From Membranipora membranacea (Eukaryota; Bryozoa; Gymnolaemata; Cheilostomatida; Membraniporidae): a stretch of DNA of 60,000 bases. Made by a program: the position numbers and the translations under genes. The notes under the pieces are model-generated. The model ran no database searches. It was given only the letters and a program-made list of their open reading frames with translations, and was not told the origin of the DNA. The stretch is from positions 15,116,062 to 15,176,061 of the forward strand of contig OU612074.1 of the NCBI GenBank assembly GCA_914767715.1, written 5' to 3'. Shown in pieces: positions 1 to 50,600 of the stretch. Position 1 is the stretch's first letter. Every line of letters starts with the position of its first letter.

Positions 1-14751
<14,751 letters not shown>

Positions 14752-16512: not shown

Positions 16513-18315
16513 TTAATGTGATCGTAGACTTGGTAAATAATAATCATACATGAAAAAATTAAAAAAGTTGTGTTTACTGTGTGCCGACCCACACCGGTAC
16601 TCTATAATTCCCAGTGGCACAATATGATCTGGATTGAATATAACTTTTAAGATCATGTCATCATTCGTTATGCTGTCATATCCATCAGGTGGCTTGGATA
16701 GGCCAGGTGAATCCCTTTTGGTTATAGCCTTTGAGCGACCAGTTATTATCTTGCATACAATTTGCGTACACATTACTCTCCCGCTTCGCTCTTCATCATC
16801 TAAAATCTTGCCATGAAAGCTCACCGGACGGTTAGCAATTAGCACTGCAAAGGGATGTGCTACACATGGACGCAATCCAAAATATGCTCCCTTTCCGTAA
16901 CCTGTAAAAGGGAGAAAGTAGGCATATACGGTTTCTGAAACTTCTTTCAATATCAATATTTTATTTAGTTTTAATTCTTAGCTACATCACTAATCATGCA
17001 ACAAAGCGTAAGAGGAACTTTCCTGTCTACATCCTCCCCTTTATTCATAGTGGTCAAAACATTCTGTCGATGTCAGGGAAAATGAGGAATGAAAATGTCA
17101 AGGTCTGATTAGTATACATCCAGCGACATTTTGAGTAACATCTGACACTCAAATATACTACGCTGTGAAAACAGAATACTAACCATAGAATGTTTCGGAG
17201 TATTATGTTACAGACTGACTAAGTATTGGAAGTAAATGCAGCTAATAAACATAGTTTGATAAATTAAGTTACTACCTCAGATCATCATATAGTTCTACAC
17301 CCGCTCAATGTATCTCTAACCAGGACACAACTCACTCATTTATCTACGGTTTGTTAGAAAATGGGAAACTCAAACTGCCTCTCATGTGTCACGTCATCAG
17401 AAGTTCTCTTAAAATTGAAACAACAGCAGATATATTTGCTTACCGCTACCAAAGCTGGTGCCTGAGCGTCTCATATCAAACTGGGATTGTACAATTTTCT
17501 GGGCATAGCTCTGATGTGTGCCGTGATACCCGATTTCCTCCACAGTATCCAGTTCTGGCCTCATGACTTTAACTTCCTGAAGGGCCTTATGATACTTTTT
17601 CAGCTGTTGTTGGTTGTGTACTGGAATCCACTGAAAAAAGTGCAGTCAGCGTTTTTTAAGCTGAGACCTGGTGCCCATAAAATGTTTCATTTTTAAATGT
17701 AAAGCTTTGCCACTAAAATTACTGAACACCCGCTATAATCTGATTGTACCATGGTAACATTTTTTGAGGGTTATAAGTAACTAGTTTTCCTATATGCAAC
17801 AATCTGTGTTCACATAGTTTTTGAAGATGGAGCTGCATCACAATCAATCGGACATATATAAAGTTGAGGCTTGGACTCTTTATTTTTGGTTAAGCTCTAT
17901 GCACCCTTTTTTCAGCACCTCGTCAGTGCATGTGATATTGATAACCAATCAACCGATCAATCGTCAAATCAAGAACCTACTCAAAGTTTGAGCAAAGTTA
18001 TGGTGGGTTGTGATGGGGTGCTTTGTGCAGTTCCTGTATGTGTCAGCGCATGAGCGTGTGTGTGTATGTGCAGATAATAGATATTATCAAGGAGGTCAGC
18101 CACCAACTTCGTCCTCAATTATCAGGCTGGGCAATGCATAGTCATTGTGTAATACAATAGTAGAGCAGAATGATAAAAAGACAATTAGAACATACTTTTA
18201 CGTCTCGGATTTTTGTGTCAATTTCGTGTTCTCTGTTGAAAGAGAGGATGTCTTGTCTGAAATCCTTGCAGAACTTCAACACTTCGGAGGTTGCCGGCGC
18301 CAAAATTTTGGGAAG
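16513..18315 (-). CDS. Exons 3-5 of caspase-PARP gene: complete PARP/ART catalytic domain
   Basis: Exon 3 (18315-18196) encodes the first helix and strand of a mono-ART PARP domain (SEVLKFCKDFR... EIDTKIRDVK). Exon 4 (17630-17444) carries the family's tryptophan/asparagine region followed by YHGT. Exon 5 (16901-16513) carries YGKGAYF and the C-terminal strands up to IIEYR. The order His, Tyr, then a hydrophobic residue at the third triad position matches PARP10/14/15-type mono-ARTs. There is no macrodomain, WWE or ankyrin region in the visible exons. If the link to the caspase exons were wrong, this would be a stand-alone PARP domain lacking a clear first exon. Confidence 0.85.
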
Positions 18316-21300
18316 CTGCAAAATAAAGAGATCATCCAGAATAGCATAGTTTCTATACAAAATTGACATATTATTTTTCTTGGTGAATTTCATACCGAAT
18401 ATAATATGTCAATGTTTAAGGGTATATATATACTGTCTGGAAGCCATAATGTAACGTAGTTATGGCAGTGTTTCTTAATAATTTTCATGCATAGCATAGC
18501 TTGGGGGAATTCTATATATCCTATAGTCTTACTGCAATTACTAGTCAATTACTGCAAATCAGACTAGATTTATTCCTGATCTTCTCTTTGGGAGTACTGT
18601 GAAAGCCAGCAGTGAATGCAATCACATAGAATATTGCCAATTGCCAACACAAAAAATTTGGTTTTTTCTAGCCATTATTTTATAAACCTCAATCAACATT
18701 AAACCTTTGCTCCCTTCATCTTTTTAAGCAAATTGTTAGGGCCTTAGTGCCTCGGCAAATATGCTTCTATAGAAATTTATTTGGTACAAAGGCTAATATC
18801 TTATAGTCCAGTCATATCTTTCGTTAAAACTTCAAAAACGAAATGTAATTCCACAGTAATAGATAGGCTTCTTCCTACGCTTTTGTTGAAATATGAGCCA
18901 TTACACCACAATTCCAATGAACTATCTTAACTCATTGCCGCAATGAAGTATTACTTTGACTTCAAATTCTCAGTGAGCAAAACAGGCAAGCAATCTCAGT
19001 AGTGAGATGAAACATTCTTATATTATTCTATCTTGTTTACATATTATATACCATTTGTAACTGCTTGCTATCATCAGTGTTTTACACCTACATCACATAT
19101 CCTTATATATAATTTCAAAGGGCTTATCTACGTTTTAAAACCGACCATATTTGCCTATTTATCAACATATCTATGCCTGTTTATGATGCTTGGTGGTCAA
19201 CTTTGGCTATATGAAGACATTGTAGGCAAAATGCGGTGGAGGTATAAGGGTTGGAGCGCCGGAAGGGTTTTTGTACATTAACACAAGAAATCTTGATGAC
19301 AAATGTTACGTATTTATTATTTGAAGGAGCATCCAAAGCCATGTCTAGCAACTAGCGACAATTAACCCTAGCTCGGCAAGGCCATACTTATTGGCTATGG
19401 ATGAGTGGGGCGAAGGGGGCAAGAGATGGTGCGGGATCAGGAAACCACATCCAACTAATTATTAGATTTAGACATCTTTTGATTGCCTTCCAAACTAACA
19501 AAGATATATGCACGCAAAAAATAAAAACTTTTATGGTATGTCTAAATACATAAGTTAGTACTGTTAATACATACACTATGATCCCATGTTGCGATTTCGT
19601 AATAATTTCGGGAGTAATCGCCCCATGGAAATGACATTAAAGTAACTTTCAGATTGTGACGAATGACTTTTTGGACGCTAATACCCATACCGGGTTAATT
19701 CTTATTACTTCCTAATTCGCGGTGTGGCTGCATGGTTAGCGCGCTTGCACACAATGCCTAAAAAAAGCGATAAGATGCAGGAGACTGGGGTTCAAGCCGC
19801 GGCAGATGTTTTTTCCATCATGGGAATGGTTAGAATCCACTGGATTCTAACCATTAGAAATTGGAGTGAACCACAAATTCGAAGCATGGGACCATAGTGA
19901 TAAACAGTGCCACCTTGCCTACCCTGAATTTTTCAGTTTTCCTACTACAGGCTTCCTATATGACCCGAAACCTTACTGGCATGCGTGTCTTCGGTGGGTT
20001 CCCTGAGCGTATCGATAGTAATCCTCCACTATCAAAACTAGTGATTTGACTGACTGACTAATTTTTCACTTTATTAATTGGAGTTATATCTAGTTTCTCT
20101 GTAGTGTAAGTCAGTTAGAGCCATAGACTATATTGGCTATTTGATACAGGCCCAGACTCGGTCAATCTGTTGGTCCGTGCATTCCTCATGACGCAACGAC
20201 ACTTTATCATTCAATTGAACGGTATGGCAATTGGGATAACCGCTGATTTAAAATACATGGATTGGAGATACATATCACAGAGTAAGGATATACAGAGAAG
20301 ACACTTCAATGATCGTTATAGTGCCTGCGGTTTTTGATTAACTTGGGGAAAATTGTGCACAGCTGGATGCCGAAAACTCATTATCTCTATATGTTATAAT
20401 GTCATTTTTCTTGCAGACATCTCTACATTTGATGGGCCATAATTCATTCTGTATTTATCCTAAAGACTGAATTCCAACTTTGTTAGAATGTCCAACCTTC
20501 AAGCTATACACCATATTGTTGTCATTTTTTGCTAGGATACATAGGCCATGAGCTATCTGTGTTTTTAAAATGAGTTATATCATATAGATTTACATGTGGC
20601 CTGGGTCAATACACGGACATTTCCTAATTTTTATGACCAGAAGTTTATCAATTGTCACATGTAAATCTATATAATAAAACTCATTTTACAAATCCAGATA
20701 GCTCATAGCCTATGTATCCTAGCAAAAAATGAAAACAATATGGTGTATAGCTTGAAGGTTGGACATTCCAACAAAGTTGGAAATCAGTCTTTAGGATAAA
20801 TACAGAATGAATTATGGCCTAACAAAGGTAGAGATGTCTGCAAGAAAAATGACATTATAACATATAGAGATAATGAGTTTCCGGCATCCAGCTGTACACA
20901 ATTTTCCCCCAGTTAATCAAAAACCGCAGGCACTATAACGATCATTGAAGTGTCCTCTCTATATATCCTTACTCTGTGTACATATCCAGCTTAGAAAATG
21001 TGAATGGCTTTATAGCGCTGTACTACTCCATGTGCTTTTTGTTTACAATGCACTTTATTGGCTCTCCAATTTTCCATTGGCCCTCCCCTTTTTTTATCAG
21101 CCAATGAAATGATTACGTAATGCTACAGCGTGTCTATTATTAATCAGTGGGGATAAATGGCTGGCTGGCTCTCCTAGCAAGATAAGTTTCCCTTGCTGTG
21201 TTCAAAGACAGCTGAATTTATGGTTCCAGATATGGATTTAAAATGTATTCTACTGATCAAGAACTCCACTGCATTTGATGTAGGGGGCTCTATGTACGTA

Positions 21301-22687
21301 CACAAACACTTCAAGCTACGAGCCAATTACTTGACGAGAGTTTTGGAATAAATTTGCAACTTACTTTTACTTTATGATTTCTCTTTGGTAGAACAAGGTG
21401 AAACTTCAAGGTATCTCTGTACTCTGCTGTCTGCTCAGGATTGTGTTTCCCCATTTGTGCCACTGCTCTTCTATGCATGTCATAAATACTAGTAGAGCCA
21501 TCTGCCTGTTGTAATTCTGCAGCTATAGCACCTGTGTATGCACCCCGTATAGCCATAGTCCCTTTCATTGTGGCTTGGAGGATAACAGTATGTGCTCTGG
21601 TCATATCGATGTAGTCACATCCAGGCTGAGCTGCACCCCATGCATCCTTACAGGCATCCATGTTCATTCTATATGTATTGGTGACACGATGTATACGCTG
21701 ACATGCTTGTATTATCAAAATCTGCAAAAAAGCATACCAATATTTGGATTTCGATTTATTTATATGATTGTTGGTTTATATTCTGATTGTTATCTAATAG
21801 AGTATAATTGTCATAAGACGCTATCGCTGGCGCCATGTTGACCGAAATTCTGTAAATCAGTATCATGTTCTGAACTCACATCTTCCAAACCAGGTCATTA
21901 ATCTCTATGAATGATAACTCATCATAAATAACTGGTGAAAAGTTTAGACTAAAAATATTGTTTAATAATTCATTGACTCCTGGAGTACTGAATAGACTTT
22001 AGAAAACGCCCTTGAGGGACTATTAGTCTAATTAGAACTATGATCAAAGTATTATTCTAGGATGGGGACTTGTGTTATAGACAGTCAGAGTTGTGGAATC
22101 AGGGAGGGTTAAATGAAGAAAGGGTATATTTTATTCTAAATCTTTTTGAATCAATTTAGCTATTTGGTAAGTGTAAAAATAACTTTACAAACTGACTTAT
22201 GTGTCGCTCACCAATTTTTCACCACATGAATCTATTAAGATGAGTAACATAGAAATTTGAAATACGAGTGCCACAGTAGACATTTTCAACCCCTCCCACA
22301 ACTGCCATAACCATACTGGTTGGAGCTAGAACTTACCATGGGTAGTTCAACGGGAATCCTGTCTTTAAAGCGGCGAATTATGTCATTGATTGCAATCATA
22401 TGGTCATGTTCATCCGAAGTTCTCAGCCTCCCAGCTAGACCATGAGCCATGAGACATACTACAAGTAGACTACAGTCATCCACTGATGGAAGAATACCAT
22501 CAACTAGGCCCCTTAGTTCTAACTTCTTTCTCCATGTTGCTCTTATTATTTCAAACCCAGCAGAGCCTAATCCTGACTGGAGTTTATCCGCTTCTTCTGA
22601 TGCGCCTTGTCGATCCTCAGGGTTGTATAAGATGACACCCAGCATCTTCTTGTTGGTTGGAAACTGGTAACGCTGTTGAGCAGCCAT
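16513..22687 (-). CDS. Caspase-like domain fused to PARP-type ADP-ribosyltransferase domain
   Basis: Exons on the minus strand, in transcript order: 22687-22337, 21721-21365, 18315-18196, 17630-17444, 16901-16513. Every splice site is canonical and phase is continuous; 1404 nt give 467 residues. Residues 1-236 form a C14 caspase-like domain without a prodomain. They include LLVVCLMAHG with the expected catalytic His82, ILIIQACQR with the expected catalytic Cys124, and AIRG, where Arg176 sits at the position of the caspase SWR arginine. Residues 237-467 match a PARP catalytic domain: YHGT (His312), YGKGAYF (Tyr345), then GYDSI. Leu423 falls where polymer-forming PARPs have Glu, so mono-ADP-ribosylation, if active, is expected. 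The start ATG has a good context (AAGATGG). The link between halves is inferred from donor AAA|GTAAGT at 21364 and acceptor TTTTGCAG at 18316, both phase 0. The alternative is two adjacent genes. Confidence 0.78.
19719..19814 (+). mobile_element. tRNA-like SINE head with pol III terminator
   Basis: A box TGGCTGCATGGTTAGCGCG and B box GGGGTTCAAGCCGC, separated by an extended variable region as in tRNA-Leu/Ser, followed by TTTTTT at 19809-19814. In the caspase-PARP intron. Could be a decayed tRNA gene; no anticodon arm pairs cleanly. Confidence 0.45.
20262..20992. mobile_element. Foldback element with about 330-bp arms
   Basis: The left arm (20262-20598) and right arm (20656-20992) are nearly exact reverse complements around a 57-bp spacer. 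Arm ends: ACAGAGTAAGGATAT / ATATCCTTACTCTGTG. Inner ends: ATAGATTTACATGTG / CACATGTAAATCTAT. No open frame of note inside. Lies in the intron joining the caspase and PARP halves. Confidence 0.85.
21311..21364 (-). other. Read-through extension giving a caspase-only isoform
   Basis: If the GTAAGT donor at 21364-21359 is not used, translation continues 17 codons to a stop at 21311, giving a 253-residue caspase-like protein without the PARP half. This would act by intron retention or early polyadenylation. It is visible only as an open extension; use is not shown. Confidence 0.4.
22337..22687 (-). CDS. Exon 1 of caspase-PARP gene: caspase p20 N-terminal part
   Basis: Start codon at 22687-22685 and donor GTAAGT at 22336-22331; 117 codons ending in phase 0. 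It encodes the first beta-strand region (MLGVILYNPEDR), the ADKL/LGSAGFEI stretch typical of caspases (family form xxDxLxxxLxxLGFEV), and the His-containing strand CLMAHGLAG. The conserved order of these blocks is why I call it caspase-like rather than a generic hydrolase. Confidence 0.85.
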
Positions 22688-22884
22688 CTTCTATGACCAC
22701 TGCAACCTTATTGCAATAGACTTCCGCTTTGAAATGGCAATATAGTTAACGTTTCAATATTATCTCAGCCCACTCCTCTGTATGTGAATAGTTGGTTATC
22801 TTTTTGATAGGAGCCAAGGAGATAAAAGGTCATAAATGGTGTGTTGACATGACATATAAATATATATGTTTATGGCCTTAACAT

Positions 22885-24246
22885 TCCATCACAGATACTT
22901 TAGGGACTTCCCTTACTCATCCCATCATGACATCAAGGTTTTTTGCGAATTAGCCTGTGATATTAACGAGGATGATGGGGTATAACATCTCTCTTTGAAC
23001 AGTTTCTATTTATAGGGTTTGCTATCAGCTATACTAACAAGTTTTTATCAAAACTCAATACAATGACTATAGCCATGTTTTTCCTTCATGAAAGCGATAA
23101 GCTCATGGCTGGTGCACATTGTCCAAGACAGACATCCCAGACAATGTGAACATGAAGTTTACAGATAGTTTTAACTCCATGGTAAAGGACCCTTGTCGGC
23201 CTATTGGCTAAGATCAAAGTGTCATTGCCAACGACCGATTAGTGCCAGTTCAGTTTTGGCAGCTTGTGCTTGTTTATCTGCAATGCTAGTCACTATGTAC
23301 AAAATAGAAGCTAGTTTAGATATAAACATTGTATTTTATGCCTGGGTGATAGTCTTGTTTTGAATGTTTTTTTGTGTCTGGCTTGTTGGATAAGTGGATA
23401 AGTTTTCACTCATTTTCTGGATAACAAGGATTAAGCTCAGAAATGCAGAATTATCTGCTAGGAGAACATTATTTTCTCATCATTTACCACCATGTAACAA
23501 TAGACACATTATTTACTTTACATTTTAACATTATCTAAGTCTTAAGATAAGCTGCCTCCTTGTTAGTCTGAGCCCCCCAGACTTTTTCCCCTCGTCCGAC
23601 GGCCCCCCGGCGAGGGTGAAAGGAGCCAGGTGCGAGAAAAGTCATAATGGTGCTGTTGCCATAATATGCCTAAATATTTCAGTCACAGATTTTTTATGGA
23701 CTTCCCTTACTCAGCCCAAGGAGTTAAAGACTTTAAATCCTTGCTCAGCCCCTTGTGGCAGGTCAAGGTTGCTACGATTCAGCCTGTGCTATTAACTTGA
23801 TGGGGTATGATTTCTCTATGTACAGTCTCTATTTACATAGTGAGGTGTTATCAGCTAAGTTGTTATCAGTGAGTTGTTATAGTGAGGTGTTATCAGGTGT
23901 TAAGTTTTTAGCAAATCTCAATACACTGACTGTTGCCATGTTTTGCCTTCTTGAAAGCAATGAGCTCATGGCTGGTACACATTGTCCCAGATTGCCATCC
24001 CAGACAATGTAAAATTACAGAGAGTTTTGAATCCATGGTAAAGGACACGACAAAATGTACACTAGTGTTGTTAACTGTAACAGTTGAAATTTTACCTAAC
24101 TTGTTTATCTGTGATGTTAGTCACATTGCACAAAATAAAAAAAAAAGCTAGTTTAGATATAAACATTGTATTTCGTGCCTGGGTGATAGCATGTTTTGAA
24201 CAGACTTTTGTGACTTAGCTTGTTGGATAAGTTTTCACTTGTTTGT
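22885..24246 (+). repeat. Diverged direct duplication (two units of about 540-560 bp)
   Basis: Unit 1 (22885-23420) and unit 2 (23680-24246) share, in order, GACTTCCCTTACTCA, GCTCATGGCTGGT, CCCAGACAATGT, GCTAGTTTAGATATAAACAT and GCCTGGGTGATAG. Each has private insertions. Neither unit keeps a long open frame. Confidence 0.7.
23195..23222 (+). ncRNA. U2 snRNA 5'-end-like fragment
   Basis: TCGGCCTATTGGCTAAGATC and the next bases AAAGTGT match the 5' part of animal U2 snRNA (known form CGGCCTTTTGGCTAAGATCA) with about one mismatch. Nothing of the rest of U2 follows, so it is a fragment, not a gene. Confidence 0.5.
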
Positions 24247-26956: not shown

Positions 26957-29900
26957 ATGGCTGAAGAGGATATGAATAAAATGTCTCTTGGGAAGTCACC
27001 CGAGAGTTCACTCAAACACAATGTCAAAGATCTACCAGTGCTCTCTGTGACAGTGTACACAGACCGGGCAGAGGTGAAGCGTACCCTCAAACTAGACATT
27101 GAGAAGAAAGGAGATATTGAGGCTATCATTGAGAAACTGTCAGAAAACTGTGATCTTGAATCTATAAGGTGAGAAATATAGGATTATTACTCTTCGTGAT
27201 GGCCTGCACTCGTTTTAGTAACTTAAATTCTCTAAATAAATCGCTAAATTAAAATAAATTGAGCACTAGTAGTTTTTGATGAGTTTAGTTTGTTGATGTT
27301 GAAGGGGTCAAGAATGGCCAGTGAAAGGTCAAGAAGAGCTTAGACCAAGAGTAACAGGGTTACTCCTTGCTTATACCAATGTGTCAATGGAATTTACTAA
27401 ACAAGTATTCCGTATCCTCTATTTCGCTTGGCTGTGGCTTGTTGAAACAGGGCGGTTCTCAGAGCCACAACTCCACCGAAGAATAAGGAAAATATCAATG
27501 TGACTTTTAATCAAGTACACTGCCTGGCCTGTGTTGGAAGAACTAGCTAGTTTAAAAAGTTGTTTTGAAATAAAAGTGCTTGGTACAAATTTGCTGCCTA
27601 ATAAATTGTCATATTGTTTGGTTAAACGATTGTCTCGAGGGGAAATTTGCGGCAGTGCATTGGGGATTGGAATCTTGTCATACTAAATTTTCCTCATTTT
27701 GAGCTAACTAATATGCAAAGCATTGATCCTTAGGCCTATGTAGGCCAATTTTTTTGTTTGCTCCATGTATGACAACTGCGATAAAGATAGTAGTGAGTGT
27801 GCAAGCTCATATACTTGGAATTGGCATGTTTAGTCTGCCATTACTAGATATCTATTATCATTTTCTTTTACAAATGAATGAGCTCTTGTTTCTCAGATCT
27901 TAATCTTGAATTGAGGAAAACTAATTTGTTTTCTAGTAACAAATAAGTAAAAAGTAACAAATAGTGTTTTGAAATTTCATTGCATTTGTTTTTGTAAACA
28001 CCTGAATATTTTTATTGTGTAGTAAGATTTGACATTATCAATCCAAAAGGGAATAGGGCTTTGCTCGAGCTAATAGTAAATGTAATGAAGCTTTAGATGA
28101 TAATAAGTATAATTTTGTGACTTTTTTTATATATTTTCCAGGGTCGAAGGTCGCGGTGAGGCCACAATAACTGAAGTGACATCCGTAGAGAAGTTATCCG
28201 AGCGACCAGAGGTCGATGAGAACGCGGTCAAGTCTATCAGAGACCAGATAACAGATGTGCAGCTGCAGGTTACTGTGCTGGAGTCAGAGAAGGCCAGGGT
28301 GCAGCAGAGAAAAGGCATCATACAGGGGCTGGGTCAACAAGTGCAGACACCTTCTGCTGTCGGCAGCGCCTCGGACAAGAAAGAGGTAATGAAACTGGGG
28401 GTCTTTCAATTAGGATGAGCGATGCTTTACTTACTAAATTTTTTTATTATCACATCGCTCAAAATTATCTCTCACTTGTGCATTCAATTAGACAAAATGA
28501 CTCCCAAATCGCTCACTCAGAATGTGTTTAGTTCCATCAATGAGTTAGCGATTACTGTGCGAGACTCTAGCTGGTATTGCTCACTCACTAGTTGAGTGAG
28601 CAATAAGAATGCGATTTTGGCTGTGTTTTTTTTATTGACAGACCCCATGATTGTTATTTGAGTGATTGTGACAAAATCAGATTTTTGTAACGTTCTTGGG
28701 TTTTCAGGCTAATTTAGAACATTGTTATAATTTAAGTCTAAATCTGACTTTGTCATGTGACTTTCAGGTCATTTGATCAATGGCTGCATAACATGTGAGT
28801 CTGAGCTTTAAAGATGCGCGGCTCTGAAATCTATTGGCTGCGAAACTAGTTAGATTCGATTGGAAACATTCGTTCTGTGTCAGGTCTCATTTGGTGACAA
28901 ACAAATTGCCTTTCCTCCACTACCATACTTTGTATTAGGCCTGCATGGAGCAGCTGTAGCGCTAACATATTATTACCGGCAAAACATCAAGAATGATGAT
29001 ATCCCACATTCAGCAAGCCACAAATTGCCCCGATCAAGGGATGCCAACATAAAACACCCATTTACCAATACCAAACAAATACTCGTACCGAAAGGGGATT
29101 AGGGGTATTATATTTGTCGAGCCATGATAATGATAATTCACCTGACACATGACAATCACATGTATGGTAATATCTATTATTGAGGAAGTAGCATATTCAA
29201 ATATTTGGGTGCCGTGTCATCATATTGCAGAGATGTTGTTGCCATATAATTTCAAACAGTATGACGAAACCACTAAATCATTGCTCTGTTGCGAACCATT
29301 TGCAATTAAGTTCCGATTGCTAAGATTTCTAGTCTAGTTTTATAAAGCCATTCCCACCAAATGAGCTGTGCAATTTCGTCATCGAGTGTCATACAGTAGG
29401 CTATGTCTTAATCATAAAATTCCAAACCAGTCATGCATTCCAACCATGGTGATTGTAAATACTATCATCCATACAAAACAAAAAACAAACCTGTATATGA
29501 GGAAGTTGTTAAATGTTGTAACTAGATTAAAAGAGATTAGAGCTAGGAGACATTGTTTTGAGATCGAGCCAGCCCCCCCTTTCTCCCTTCCTAGGTCTAC
29601 ATCTAATCACGCCTGTTTGATTAGAGCCTGTCACTGTCCAACACATTTACTACTGTTTTAGATGAGTAATATCACAAACATTTTACTTGATCTAGATTTC
29701 TAGACATTCAATGTTAAAGGCATAAGCCGGCAGAACACTTTTCTCATATACTCTCGAAATCTGACTGTTTTATTTAAGAATAAAATGAGCTAATTCTTGA
29801 TTTAACTGCAACGCATTGATTATTGAACATTGAACATTTTATCTACTTATCTAGATTTTAAATAATGCAGCCAATGTTAAAATGAGACAACATCTGGCTA

Positions 29901-32900
29901 TTTTCTTCGAGAAAAAATAAAATTAACAATAATTTAATTTAACAGGGTTCTGCTGGTATAAGCCTGCTGTCCAGTGATGGGTTGGAAGGTGTCGTCAAGT
30001 TCCTGGACATGTACAGCAGGCAACTGGAGACCTTGGATGTTGAACTGTTCAGAATCGATGCTGAAATCAGGTCGTTGAGAGATAAGATTAAAGTTCTCAA
30101 CGATCAAACCACGGAGCAAAGAAATGTTGGCAGTAAAGTCGAGAGGAACAGGTACTGGTTCAAGCTAGCACTCGGTGTTGGGTTGTCTACCTGACCCGTA
30201 AATAAAGTCAGTTCAGAGACTATAGATATATCTATAGTCTCTGCTCAGATACTATAGTAGCTGAATTAAGGATGATATTGACATCCTGTTATGCAATGAC
30301 TTTGAAACACGTAGTGTTAGTAACTCGTTAATTAGTTGGTTTGTATGATTTTTGATCTATATTACTGTTATTACAACATTTCATACTTTAACAGCACCGA
30401 AAATTCAGTAATGCTTTAAAACCTTTAATTTATAGACAAGTTTCTATCCTCATGGATGTAAAAGAGCCAGGGGAGATCACTCTCACAATATCATATCTTG
30501 TGACAGGGGCGAGCTGGAACCCCCGATATGATATACGAGCATTCAGTGAGGATGAAGTGGTTAAGGTATGTGAATATAGACAATAGCATTAATACACTCT
30601 CATCCAGATTACACTAAGAGCCCATATATCTCTGATCATAACAGTCAATTTAGTCTTAGTACCTAGCATGTGCCCCCCCCCCCCCCTTAAATCTTTAATT
30701 TCATGTGCCCGACTCTGATTTGTAAACTTCGTGTGCCTGTCTCTGATTCTTTAATTAGACTACATCAAAATTATTAAATGAATTACTTTTGGGTACTGTG
30801 CCACGATTAGAGATAAAAACAGCTCATGAACCTGGTCTATTGGCTTTCTTACTGTCTATGTCTATGTACTTTGTTATATATTATTATATTATTATATAAT
30901 GTTGACATTGCTGGCTATTGAGAGCCTGGATGTGTTTTTCTAACTAGTTTGAAGTCTTGCTCAGTAGTCTAAGTGCTCTGAATGCTGTGTAAGTGCGGGT
31001 TTGTTGCGTTATATGTGGAACGTTCGATAATGTAATGTAATGACACCAACTCGCTCCTATATCGAGCGCTTAGAGCACGCTCTCTCAATGTAGTGCTGTC
31101 ATTTTCTTTGGAGGCTTGCAGTTGTATTTTTATTTCCTCCGCAAAAAAACACTTCCCTTCAATTTGCCTTTACTTAACTTTTCTGGCACTGTTTTACTTG
31201 ATATAATTTGTAGATTACATATTTTGGACTGATAAAGCAAAAGACTGGAGAAGATTGGAACGAAGCTAAACTGCACTTGTCAACTGCTCAGCCAAGTGTG
31301 GGTGGTACTATACCCACCCTCCCTTCCCGGACTGTCAACTTCAAAGTTCCACCGCAGCCGAGGTGAGCATCCATGTTCTTCATTAGCTAGGATATGCAAG
31401 CATATTGAAACTCAATTGGCTGAACACGATGATTTTTAAAGCTCTGTTGTTACAAAAAAATTTGATTGTCATTCGGAAGATGCTAATGGTTTGTTCAGCC
31501 AGTTGAACCAGCTTCAGCGTTTATGACGTGACAGTTAGAAAGATGACATGTATTGATTTTGATCTGAATTGCCTGTATTTCGAGACAGTCCCTTTCTACT
31601 ATAAGGGGAACGACTCCTAACGCAGACATTTTTGATCAAACTTGATTTGATATAGTTATGACCATGTCACCTTGTCAGTCTGGATTAATACATTCCAGCC
31701 TCCCACAACCCCCCCCCCCCCTTTTATACCACACACGTCTTGTTACTGTTTTTTTTGGCTATTGATCAATCAATTTGTTGCTGTCTTTTTGCTAAGTTAG
31801 GGAAACGTTACGAGCATCTCCGGCACGGGTTTTCATATCCAAACGTAGCCACATACTTGTTTTCACTGTTGATTGGAATAACGCTTGTCAGAAAACCCTT
31901 ACTCGTGTGTCAATTACATATCATGTTACTCCTGATATTCATTTTCCATTGTATTACATTTATGAGTGTGTTGATTTGATAGGTGTCATGAACAGCAGGT
32001 GTTAAAGTCATACGATTTTGGATTTAGTTCAAAAGCTAAATCTAAATCCAAATCTCTCCGTAGCTCAGTCTTGAACAAATATGATCCCACAATAGAGGAT
32101 TACGAGTATGATGAACCTCCTGAGTTAGGGGTTGCAATGGCTGAGGTGAGATGATTGAATGGTACCAAAAACGCGCAAGAGCACCACTTAAAGTGTTATA
32201 TCTCACAGTTCTGTTTCAAACAAGCATATCCTCACCGCTTAATCATCTCTTACTTTTCTTCTCCTGATCTGTTATCTTTCTCCCGTTTTGCCGATCTAGC
32301 TAGGAGCTGATGCCAAAGACTGTCCTGTTCAGTACCCGTCAAAAGGTCAAGGTCATAAGGTCAAGGTCACAAATTCAGGGTCAAACGGTCACCTGATTTC
32401 CACAACATGCTTCCTTTCGCTTTCTATGGCACATACCATACCATCTATTCTTTGTCTACGCCAAGATTACTCGACCAACAATACCAAGAGGCTCCGTGTT
32501 ATCTCGGCTCAAGATGTTTCATTATGGCATTGATCCTGTTCGCTGACACCAGCCCTCATTACAGCTGCAGCCTGGGAACCTCTGATTCGGCATCGGATGC
32601 TCTGCGCGCCTCCCCAGATATGAACAACTTTTAGATATCTGGAGTTGAGTAGTGCATTATTGTGTTATGTATCAACTTTTTTACTGATCAAAACTCCGGA
32701 GAGCACATAAGATCATGTTTACGGTATTATGGGAGACGCACTAAATAATACGCTAAATAATGGTGAAAAAATATTGACTCATGTTATAATTACAAAAATC
32801 TCTGAATAAGTGACTTAGACCGCTGTGCTGTTCTTGATTTTGATTTGATTTGCCTGCCACTGTTCTACCAGTGGCCGTGTAGGTATGTTGAGGGTGAGTG

Positions 32901-38900: not shown

Positions 38901-41900
38901 TAGACTCTCAATCGTCAGCCTGTCCATCGATTGACAATCAGGCTTCCTACATCACTATGGGATGCAAGATCCTTTTTTAATGTGTTGATACTGCAGAGTA
39001 TTCATTTATGAGAACTATAACGATGCTCTGCGCTATTAGTTGAATTATTGCGGCCATCATATCACCTCTATTTCCGATAACATGTCATCTGAAAATTGAT
39101 GCATTTAGCTACATCATTATAAATTAATGGATTTTTCACTGTCAGACATTTTACAAAAATTGCTCCATGATTCAACCAATAAGGCCACTGTGCAAAACCA
39201 CCACAAGCTATCACTGCTTCTTTTCTGTGCTTTCAGTGTGCTTCATCAGCTTCTTCTTCATGCTCTATCCTCACAATCAAAATGTGCAGTCATCATTACT
39301 GCTTACTTTCTCATGAACATGGAATTAAATGATAACCCACAGCAGTACAAATTATTTAATTGCATATTGCTAATGCACAGGGAACTTGTTGCTAATGCGT
39401 AAAGCATATTGTTTACATAACTGAAAAGTATCAGTATTCATGTGTTATGTTGTCTTGACTTCTGAAGTCAGATGTCATTTATATTTGGGATTCCGCCATG
39501 TGACTGTGTCCCTTGATTCGACCCCTGTCTGTAGCAGCGACTTAGCTAGCTCATTTTTTCCCAAGCAGTATCTATTTCACCTGCCGTAAATGCTGTTGAA
39601 ATCAGGAAATTTTTGAATTCATAGCTAGATGAAGAAATTGATGGATTTATTTGAAATTCTTAATTGGAAATTGATAACAAACCCTCTTGTTAACACAACA
39701 AAGCTGAGAACATGTTCACAGCCCTAGCTGAAATTCACTCCACGCAGTTTTAACATCTAAAGACCTCTAATGTGTATGTAATACAAAAATCTGAACCAAA
39801 TGCCAATAACCAAATTTGAGTTATAAATGAAAGCAAGTTGAAAGAAATTGATTTTATCTATTTATTTTTCATTTGATTTCACCTTACTCGAGGGGTTCTT
39901 TTAAGCAATATTTTATTCCACATGAAAAATTTTACTTTATGTTTACATCCCTGGAGAGAGAGTTTATTAAAAGTAAACAAACAGACAAGTTTGCTGTATT
40001 CCTTAACTATTTCTATATTCATATTTAGGTTAAAGGAGGAGCTATGAGTACAACATATGAAGTCGCCAGAAAGTCAACAATACCAAGCGACAATACAGGT
40101 TAGAAATTAATACATCAATTATAGTGGATACAAGGTGTGTCAGCTTCAGAACAGTCATTTGGTGCTCACATTTTGCATGACTTTGCCTCCAATTGGGTTG
40201 TGTCAGGAGTTATCCCTAATTATAGGGGGCGCTAAACAGATGAGACCATAAATTTGACCATAGATTTTCGGATAATTTTTTATTTCAGCATATTGGTCAA
40301 TTATCTGGACTGCAGAATATGTAGATCAATGTGGTTAGCTGAAACCAATGAGTTTTTACAGCATAAGGTCTCATCTGCTTCCTTTATGGCTTATATAGAA
40401 CTTCGCAAAAGTATGGTCTTGTCTGTAAATAATCAAGGGAGATTACTCCGAAAAACATGACCCCCATTTACTCAAGTAAATGGTCCAAAGTATGCTATCG
40501 ATGATCTAGTAACACTGCTGGTCTCTGTGTGTTTGTCAGCCATAACGGCATAACTTTGAAATATTGCTGTCTCGGCTTGTAGTTGGGATGGGGTCATAAC
40601 AAATGGACAGTGGTATCCACAGAATACAAGGTGATTGCTGAAACAAACACTTAGTACTGATAGTACTGCTAGTACTGCTAGTGGTGCTAGTACTGTTAGT
40701 ACTGCTAGTACTGCTAGTACTGCTAGTTGTGCTAGTAATGATAGTAGTGCTAGTACTGATAGTGCTGCTAGTAATGCTAGTACTGCTAGTGGTGCTAGTA
40801 CTGTTAGTAGTGCTAGTAGTGCTAGTACTGATAGTACTGCTAGTACTGCTAGTACTGCCAGTACTGCTAGTTGTGATAGTAGTGCTAGTACTGATAGTAC
40901 TGCTAGTACTGCTAGTTGTGATAGTAGTGCTAGTACTGATAGTACTGCTAGTAGTGCTAATACTGTTCATAGTGCTAGTAGTGCTAGTAGTCTTAATAGT
41001 GCTAGTAGTGCTAGTACTGCTAGCGCGAGTACGAGCACTTTGAAAGTACAATGAAGAGCAACACAACATGCACATCATTTTCATGTTCCTTTAGAAAGTT
41101 TTGTTGTTTTACAGAGCACAAAGTAACGGTGGCCATGTTTGATTTGAAGCCGGAGTTTGAGCATCTCAGCATCCCAAAGATGGTTGCGAGTACGTACCTC
41201 AAAGCTAAGCTTACTAACGACAGTCCCTATCTTATCCTCGCTGGGCCTTCAAGTGTGTTTGTCGACAATAACTTTATCGCAAAGGTAAGTTAACTTATAT
41301 GCCAAGACATTGGCTCCAGCTTAAACTGAAAGCGAAAGAGATTCTTATTTCAGTCTCATTCCACCTTCTCCAGTTTTGTTTTCTGATGAGATATTGGGTG
41401 GCTTGCTTTTGATTTGCTTACGATTTTGCCTTTTTTTTACGATTTTGCTTCAATGGATCTCCATATTTCAATGATGGGTATGACTTGAAACCTCCATGGC
41501 AGCACTCAATTTACACTCAGTAAGCAGGGAAAAAAACAAATAATAACCGTCCTTACCATCGCTGTACAATTTAAAACCTCATGAGTAATTCGGCCAAACA
41601 CAAGTATGTCAACAGACTTGAAAGAACTTTGTAAACAGTTGGCCTCATCATCATTCTACTATAATATAATTCAGTAAGTAACATCAAGGGTTGGCGAGAT
41701 GGCGCGCAATGGGTTAGCACGCTTGCTATTCACTGCCAGGCGATTAGTGCCGCAGGAGTTGTGGGTTCGAATCCCATTGGGGGAGCTTTCAAGAATGATT
41801 GTTCCAGCCCCCAGCACCCTCGGGTGTATACCTCTTCCCTTTATTTTGAGTTGTTCGATGAAATTGAAAATAAAACAAAAAAAACATAACAAATGTTTTC

Positions 41901-47206: not shown

Positions 47207-47672
47207 TGGAAATAATATCATCAATGATGTCGGTCAAGTCGATAATATATGGTTGAAAAGTAAAGTTTTGAATGGGCTGAACTTCTCTTTAGATCTCAAA
47301 TGTAACGGTAATGAATTGATGTAGCAGAAACTTTGTATCTTAGATTGTCTGTATGATATAAACAGTATTTAATCGATATAACCATAGACATGTTTTGTCT
47401 ATGGTCAAAGCTACTTTCTAAATTTTTGAGTGAAGTGTAATCAACAGTAAAAGACGATAATTCCCCACATAGCAGCTACACAAAAGCTTTGTCCCTCTTT
47501 TGGCATAGTGTAAAGAATATGGACCTAAGTGTTTTCATTATTAACCAATATCAATATCCTGGTGAGTTTTTATGAGCATTCAACAATTATATAGATTCAA
47601 TGACGAAAAGCTGTGCCTCTTAGTAAGCTTTGTTTACTTTCCTTCAGTACTGTGTAGCAATATACTTAAAAA

Positions 47673-50600
47673 ATGGCACACCAACCAGACGAATCGTCAG
47701 ATGAGGAATGGACCGATGAGACATTGTCATGGGAAAATATAGACCCAGAGCTGCTAGATACATTTGGTGATATAGGTTTGCTCATGATGATATGCGTTAA
47801 GTTGGAGGCTGTACTAACTGAGGTCTTAGCGCAATATTGCCATCTTAACCCGGCTGACAGTCCTATTTCACTCTTAAATGATTCTGATTCTTCGCATCCT
47901 AAGGTTCATCTAATAGACTACTATCTACAGATATATGACAGTAAACACGTGAGTGGCTCTGTGCAGGAAGACAGTGTCAAAAGCTTCTCAGAAGCTTTAA
48001 AAACCAGCTCTAAAATGATGTTTGGGCATTTGATATACAATGTCTTTCAGAATAAGGATGGAAATCCTGCTACATACTGGGGTTTCAGTTCTGAGGAGTT
48101 TCGTTTTACAGACATCAATAATCTGCGGCCAAAAGTTGCTCACTACAGCAAACACACAGACCCTAAAAAGATTTTGGGGGATCTCAGCGCACCAGAGAGA
48201 AAGAAAATAGTGAGTAACTTTACATGGATTATAAAGAATAGCAGGACCTTCCAGAAGGCCTATCCGGGTACCTACGCCCAGGTGAGTCAAACTCTGATCA
48301 TTTACACTGTAAAGTTCATAGATACGGGGGATGGAATCACAGAGTTGAATTAAGTACCCAAACACATCTATCTTCTAAGCTTCATCGTTGTTACAGAAAG
48401 TTATGTGATGTATGTACTCTAGCGTCTAGCTGAGATGATGGCTTTCTAAATTAAGGGTCAATGTCAATTTAAAATCACAAAAACTTTGCTCAAAATTATG
48501 CTCATTAGGTCCTAGACAATTTTGTTTCTAAATCTCTCACTCAGCATTTGTGAGTAAGAGTTTCACTCACTTAGTCAGACACTGAGTGAGCGATCAGATT
48601 TCGATTTCGGATGCTTTTAATCGAAAGAACCCACACCCCACCCCCCCCCGCTTAATCCAGCCCCTTGAACAATAGTTGTTTCACCCTGAAACAAAAGAAG
48701 ACAACTCCTTACCTCAATAAACAATTCCACAACAATAATGTTTAGCAATTCAATGACCATTCTTTACAGCTAAAAAATGTCTTTACAGCTAAAAATATAC
48801 TAGGAACCTCCTCATTGCTCTACCCTCTCCCCGAAATTTTGACCTGAGGTCAATAGATGAAGAAATTTAAATTCCACACTCTATTGTTGTTGCGAGCAAC
48901 ACTTGATTTGTAGCTGATTCATATGCCTATTATTATGAGATGAATGCTGTTGAATGATCCTTTGCTCTTTTAACTTTTTTATGACTCACCATGACAACAG
49001 ACTGATTTACAAGGAATAAATCTTAGCTGCTTTTTTTTTAATTTTTCACCACACATGCCACACCATCGCATTGCATTCAATAGCATCGTCTTTGATGATG
49101 ACTCAATGAAATGAACTAAAACCTTATCCCTGTTTTTATGTAGAGGCAAAAGGACTTTCTTGAAGTAAAAAAACTAAAGGAGTTCAAAACTTTAGTCAGA
49201 GTATATAACCAAACAGTTAACAATACAGACAAAGAAATCGACGAAATTAAAGAGTAAGTTACCTAAAATTCTTCGCATTCATTCACAAAACAAAAAACTT
49301 ACGGCCCCTTCTAACCCATCTTGTATGCATCAACTTTTTTTCTGTTTCTCGGGAACCACTCGCCCCAGATCAAAAATTCCTTCTATACATAAGAAAAGTG
49401 CACACTTCAGCTTAACAAAGCTAGTTGAGCTACCAAAATTTAAATATCTTGAGCTGCAAAGCCTTATTCGACTATACCTTTCATCAAAATTTAGATTATA
49501 TCCCGCTGTTTATCTTTAAAAAACAAAGCTACTTTCTGAATTTTTGAGTGAAGTGTAATCAACAGTGAAAGTGTCAGTACACAACCAAAATGGGTGGTTA
49601 ATACTCTGAATATCTTAGTTCCTGTCGCTATTGTCGAATTCACTTTCTCTTCTCACATAAAACCTCATGCCGCGCCCGCCTGTCAGAGATAAATCTAATC
49701 CTATCACTATATACCCTGGTTAATCAAACCCTATCACTGAGCTACCTTGTTCAATATTGACTAAGCAATCCTGTATGTTGAGAAGCACACATTCTTACAG
49801 TTTTATCAGAGACTATAGATAATATAGATAATATAGATATATCTATAGTCTCTGGTTGTATTATAGTATGGTACCAGAGGCAAAATAGCCAGTTTTATCT
49901 GAGAAAAGTATACCATCTCAAAGCCAGGAATCTGGGGCATGGTGAAACCTAGCAAACTTTGCCCAGGATCAGTGGTAGTGGCATTCCATTGGAAGGGTAA
50001 GATGGATCTTAAGGTTAGAAAATTGAAGGCTGATGAGGGAAATACTGCTTTATTATTGCAGTGCAAGTGCAAGTTTTCCCAGAGCCAACAAACATCCTTT
50101 TGGGTGACATGTTGAAATTATATAAACAGCCTAATTCTTGCAAGAATTAGTAGCCTGTTTAACATCATTTAGTATTTTGATTATTATTTATTGATTGTGC
50201 AATTTTTAAACTCCAGGGCTAACCAGTTGTTGTTGGACAAAATGGAGAAAAATCAGGAAGAGATTGACCAGCTGGAAAGTACAAAAGCTATTCTTCAGGA
50301 GAAAGTGAAGGAGTATAAGGAGAATCTAAATGAATCAGAGAGTAGGAGAAAATCGGACAAGGACCTAGCCAGTAAAGAGAGGAGAAATTTGAAGGGTGAG
50401 CTCCAAATAAGTGAAAGATCCAACAAAAATAATGAAGCAGCTGTTGAGAAACTTAAGGAGGACTTGAAGAAAGAACAGAAAAAGGGGCTTATCAAGGATG
50501 GACAAAATCAGAATGAGCAAGCAAAGCTAAAGAAAACAATTCATAAACTACACAAACCATGCTCCCGTTGCGGTCATATTGAGGATACTTCGGATAATCT

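Follow-up and report, generated by a model that had tools for sequence, protein, structure and literature searches.

Does a single animal gene encode both a caspase-type protease and a PARP-type ADP-ribosyltransferase? Caspases and PARPs are normally separate proteins, and in apoptosis they meet as protease and substrate. To our knowledge, caspase-type and mono-ADP-ribosyltransferase effector activities have so far been known in animals only as separate proteins. The question is raised here by five minus-strand exons within the window, that is, the whole 60,000-nt stretch of DNA analysed. We argue that they probably form a real fusion gene with a new architecture of known domains. Because both domains are known, what is new would be the arrangement and not the kind of enzyme.

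Translation of the five joined minus-strand exons gives a product of 467 residues that ends in TAA. Retranslation reproduced the gene model of the initial annotation exactly, with canonical splice sites and unbroken phase, and placed its motifs at residues 80-83 (MAHG), 122-126 (QACQR), 311-314 (YHGT) and 340-346 (YGKGAYF). All four introns are GT...AG, in phases 0, 0, 0 and 1. Intron 2 (18316..21364), the junction that carries the fusion claim, is 3,049 nt long, against 615, 565 and 542 nt for the other three. Its length is partly accounted for by a 703-nt foldback (inverted-repeat) element at 20276..20978, with arms of 323 nt that are 95% complementary, which is probably a mobile-element insertion. 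Because an in-frame TAG lies two codons 5' of the exon-1 ATG, translation very probably starts at that ATG. This start would leave no space for an N-terminal CARD or DED, barring an upstream exon joined through the poor acceptor at 22687 (rank 244 of 409 AG sites with approximate splice matrices), and the predicted N-terminal protease is thus one without a CARD or DED prodomain.

Multi-exon genes with long introns, as here, suggest an animal-like eukaryote. The gene sits between two plus-strand genes. On one side is a phosphoinositide 3-kinase gene, with PI3K_C2 at 2896-3249 (Pfam E 6.7e-14) and the end of a kinase domain at 13462-13818 (20.6 bits, under the cut-off of 27.1). On the other is a divergent DUF4140-type gene at 26957-30191, perhaps extending beyond, with PF13600 at 28113-28415; it begins about 4.3 kb upstream of the caspase-PARP gene. 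By eye, pieces of the DUF4140-type gene seem to extend to about 43.5 kb, and the ORFs at 41024 and 42254 gave no Pfam match. A plus-strand open frame of 227 residues with an acidic start lies at 47670-48350 and has no Pfam match. Between the DUF4140-type gene and exon 1, at 22884-24232, is a diverged direct duplication with matching pieces 794-863 nt apart. Five minus-strand ORFs upstream of the gene, from nine of at least 50 aa in 22.7-27.2 kb, returned two chance-level Pfam matches (E 0.1 and 0.14). Apart from its own exons, a tblastn search of the window with the product gave a single match, at E 1.1 and interrupted by a stop.

The first two exons encode the protease half. Exon 1 (22337..22687) holds the start Met, the first part of the domain, a pocket-type Arg (R26) and a catalytic-type His (H82). 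Exon 2 (21365..21721) holds QACQR with C124 and a p10-like half with R176, and runs through LVLPKRNHKVK to the donor AAA/GTAAGT. Peptidase_C14 (Pfam) matches residues 24-216 of the product at E 8.7e-10 (39.1 bits against a cut-off of 21.4; profile positions 17-221 of 233), and this half scored alone reaches 41.6 bits. Singly, the exon-1 and exon-2 frames match the profile at E 0.0039 and 0.0011; joined, they match at 1.5e-10. The solved structures nearest to the N-terminal half are effector caspases, both reconstructed and natural, with E no better than 0.055, improving to 0.007 with a two-row profile. These matches are confined to about residues 22-126, the p20-like part; the p10-like part, which lies outside them, is supported by the Pfam profile and by a database relative, P0001. 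Caspase-6 is among the nearest solved sequences, and H82 and C124 align with its SHG and QAC, so that the catalytic His and Cys are kept. R26 pairs in the HMMER alignment with a caspase Arg that we take to be the S1-pocket residue, and R176, placed by eye, stands at the second pocket Arg position of caspases and is kept in P0001.

P0001 was the only one of 543 candidates to match the caspase half at E<=10 in the protein database (E 2.5e-9; 39% identity over 47% of the half). This 140-aa sequence resembles the exon-2 part only, sharing RGAYT and EYRDTL...LVLPK and carrying QACQT, and it matches the caspase profile weakly (E 0.026, under the cut-off). It points to a caspase-like subfamily without the final Gly of QACxG. 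In the present product too the pentapeptide is not matched, the last residue of QACQR being Arg, and because of this alteration we call the domain caspase-like.

The paracaspase MALT1 is active without the same Gly, which bears on whether the protease half could be catalytic. A real fusion whose protease half is inactive and controls the transferase by dimerising or by binding would fit both the QACQR of the product and the absence of that Gly in P0001, and cFLIP is one example of an inactive caspase relative (PMC8195603). We nevertheless regard an inactive protease as unlikely, given MALT1, the retention of R176 in P0001, and the alignment with caspases of the His, the Cys and its QAC, and the pocket-type R26.

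The remaining exons encode the PARP half. Exon 3 (18196..18315) contributes 40 residues, comprising a linker and the start of the domain, and contains no Met; exon 4 (17444..17630) carries the catalytic-type H312 in YHGT, and exon 5 (16513..16901) carries Y345 in YGKGAYF, the putative third triad residue L423 and the stop codon TAA. PARP (Pfam) matches residues 268-436 of the product at E 7.4e-5 and 22.8 bits, and the half alone at E 1.4e-5 and 25.1 bits, both below the curated cut-off of 26.7, and for this reason we call the domain PARP-like. Taken singly, exons 3, 4 and 5 have frames that match no Pfam family at E<=1; PARP is matched only when they are joined. Because joining exons raises the profile scores in this way, the profiles separately support the caspase half (exons 1-2) and the PARP half (exons 3-5). 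The domain search proposed for the 467-residue product recovered Peptidase_C14 above its cut-off and PARP below its own. These were the only Pfam families in the product, with no CCCH, WWE or macro domain; NCBIfam gave 0 families and Rfam no match at gathering scores. Judged by their profiles, both domains are real but divergent. Structure predictions from single sequences had low confidence (pLDDT 33.9 and 34.3).

The nearest solved structures to the C-terminal half are PARP12 (E 2.8e-4) and then ZAP (E 0.0016), and the NAD-binding residues H312 and Y345 are kept in the alignment with PARP12. Because PARP12 and ZAP are nearest among the sequences of solved structures, we assign this half as probably a mono-ADP-ribosyltransferase and not a relative of PARP1. 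L423 probably occupies the third triad position; it lies opposite a Val of ZAP in a stretch of only 4.1 bits. A residue other than Glu at this position indicates transfer of a single ADP-ribose, and L423 would therefore point to such transfer if the triad rule holds here. Weak PDB matches to cytochrome P450 BM3 at residues 245-299 were discarded as chance.

Whether the two halves are joined turns on the exon 2-exon 3 junction, which no domain profile spans; the join rests on splice signals, phase and a missing alternative start. The donor at 21365 ranks 4 of 343 GT sites and the acceptor at 18315 ranks 3 of 409 AG sites, both in phase 0; the ranking covers the minus strand of 16.4-22.8 kb, uses approximate matrices and is partly circular, since sites of this kind guided the choice of the model. 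In a codon test exon 3, at 0.051, exceeds the 95th percentile of 408 stop-free 40-codon windows from introns or upstream sequence (-0.067), whereas the open 93 nt 5' of it, at -0.174, falls short of the corresponding percentile for 883 windows (-0.035). The test is weak, as exon 1 reaches only -0.02 and exon 2 only -0.094. The GC content is 27% in these 93 nt and 43% in exon 3.

The alternative is two adjacent minus-strand genes, a caspase-like gene of exons 1-2 with a short tail and a PARP gene starting in intron 2. Several features would suit this arrangement, in addition to the lack of a spanning profile. Left unspliced, exon 2 gives a 17-residue tail and then a stop; an ATG at 18393 reads open into exon 3 if acceptor 18315 is skipped; and intron 2 holds five AATAAA sites. 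P0001 stops 18 residues beyond the shared LVLPK, without a PARP domain. However, the end of P0001 is not decisive on the fusion, because no contig of its source record exceeds 1,558 bases and the reading frame could continue into an intron. The protease half could also end in another last exon through any of six acceptors that score at least 3, from which a stop is reached after 2 to 45 residues. All but one of these sit in the foldback element, including acceptor 20837, which slightly outscores 18315 and looks unused.

Against two genes stand the strength and matching phase of donor 21365 and acceptor 18315, and the low GC and apparently non-coding character of the 93 nt before exon 3. If acceptor 18315 is used, the available Met starts are poor. 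Intron 2 has five donors at least as strong as the gene's weakest, only one of which has a phase-0 coding first exon, two codons long; the first Met downstream of the acceptor, M299, already falls within the PARP profile match and thus within the fold. A separate PARP gene using acceptor 18315 thus has no plausible coding start that we could find. We also considered extra domain-bearing exons in intron 2 and rejected them, as its five exon-free minus-strand ORFs of 50 aa or longer had no Pfam match at E<=1. Two genes seem rather unlikely on this evidence; of the readings considered, one gene bearing both domains is the strongest and is likely. On sequence evidence, the original claim of one polypeptide is supported within each half by the gain on joining exons, and is likely for the join between them.

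What might such a protein do? Caspases are cut between their two protease halves, and the product has two Asp residues, D139 (MNMD/A) and D143 (ACKD/A), each directly before an Ala in that position; four more, D254, D258, D269 (HEID/T) and D274, are found near the boundary between protease and transferase. We tentatively propose an immune or cell-death switch, in which a caspase-type protease would cut itself to arm or free a mono-ADP-ribosyltransferase within one animal polypeptide. The 467-residue protein would be a zymogen-like effector whose protease becomes active when brought together by partner binding or dimerisation. It would then cut itself at D139 and D143, and possibly also in the linker at HEID (266-269), so activating or freeing the transferase, which would put single ADP-ribose units on targets. 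Self-cleavage is plausible because the protease residues are kept and because bacterial toxins have a caspase-like domain upstream of the effector (PMC3482391). The freeing of the transferase had also been suggested in the initial annotation, by reference to PARP1 as a caspase substrate; since the domain here is nearest PARP12 and ZAP and not PARP1, that argument is one of analogy. For the fusion and some self-processing mechanism jointly, we would put the chances at a little short of even.

Caspase cleavage inactivates PARP1, and the protease of a real fusion could likewise turn its transferase off, or the transferase could modify the protease. The PARP profile match begins within HEID (266-269), where a cut could harm the fold. 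The order of protease and then enzyme resembles autoprocessing toxins instead (PMC3482391), and we consider such a reversed relationship improbable.

Searches for relatives of the fusion returned little. None of 7,695 candidates matched the full-length product at E<=0.001 in the protein database, and none of 113 matched the PARP half at E<=10. Scans of viral contigs gave 8 pattern matches for the fusion and 3 for P0001, and scans of prokaryote genomes gave 21 for the fusion and 54 for the query A2, with 0 relatives in each; as these collections consist of viruses and prokaryotes, the results say little on animals. A decaying pseudogene or an assembly join, to which the divergent sequence, the lack of an orthologue in the databases searched and the probable mobile element in intron 2 might point, is very improbable given 467 codons free of stops and frameshifts, intact splice sites, catalytic-type residues that are kept and 0 N in the whole window.

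The architecture had been put forward as one not described in animals, and this agrees with our search of the open-licence literature, in which no animal caspase-PARP fusion was found among the papers listed. Sponge PARPs occur with macro, WWE, RRM and other domains, in a paper from whose main text the word 'caspase' is absent (PMC4245714). Caspase shuffling is known from amphioxus, which has TNFR-caspase and LRR-caspase proteins (PMC2575513). If the fusion is real, it would physically couple proteolysis with mono-ADP-ribosylation and offer a natural system for studying whether ADP-ribosylation is controlled by proteolysis.

Comparison with known systems places the predicted protein among several partial likenesses. 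With animal caspases (C14A) it shares the p20/p10 order of the Pfam profile, an SHG-type His, the QAC Cys and the pocket-type R26; it differs in having QACQR where they have QACxG, in the absence of CARD and DED, and in the PARP-like domain that directly follows. With mono-ADP-ribosyltransferases of the PARP12, PARP13 (ZAP) and PARP14 type it shares the HGT and YGKGxYF motifs, but by Pfam it is without their macro, WWE and CCCH zinc-finger domains, and it is fused to a protease. Among the immune fusions of marine invertebrates, a DED-TRADD-N protein with macro and PARP14-like domains and a TRADD-N protein with a caspase domain have been described (PMC8195603). Of the fusions named in the available text of that paper none holds both domains, and neither TRADD-N nor a death fold was found here by Pfam; alike is the use of caspase and PARP-type domains as effectors in shuffled proteins (PMC8195603). 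Bacterial polymorphic toxins differ in being bacterial and secreted, and our two prokaryote-genome scans gave no relative of the present gene. Yet these toxins have a caspase-like autoprotease immediately before the toxin domain, and one such protein has an ADP-ribosyltransferase domain (PMC3482391). If the fusion is real, the animal gene would parallel them in its caspase-like domain placed immediately ahead of an effector domain (PMC3482391).
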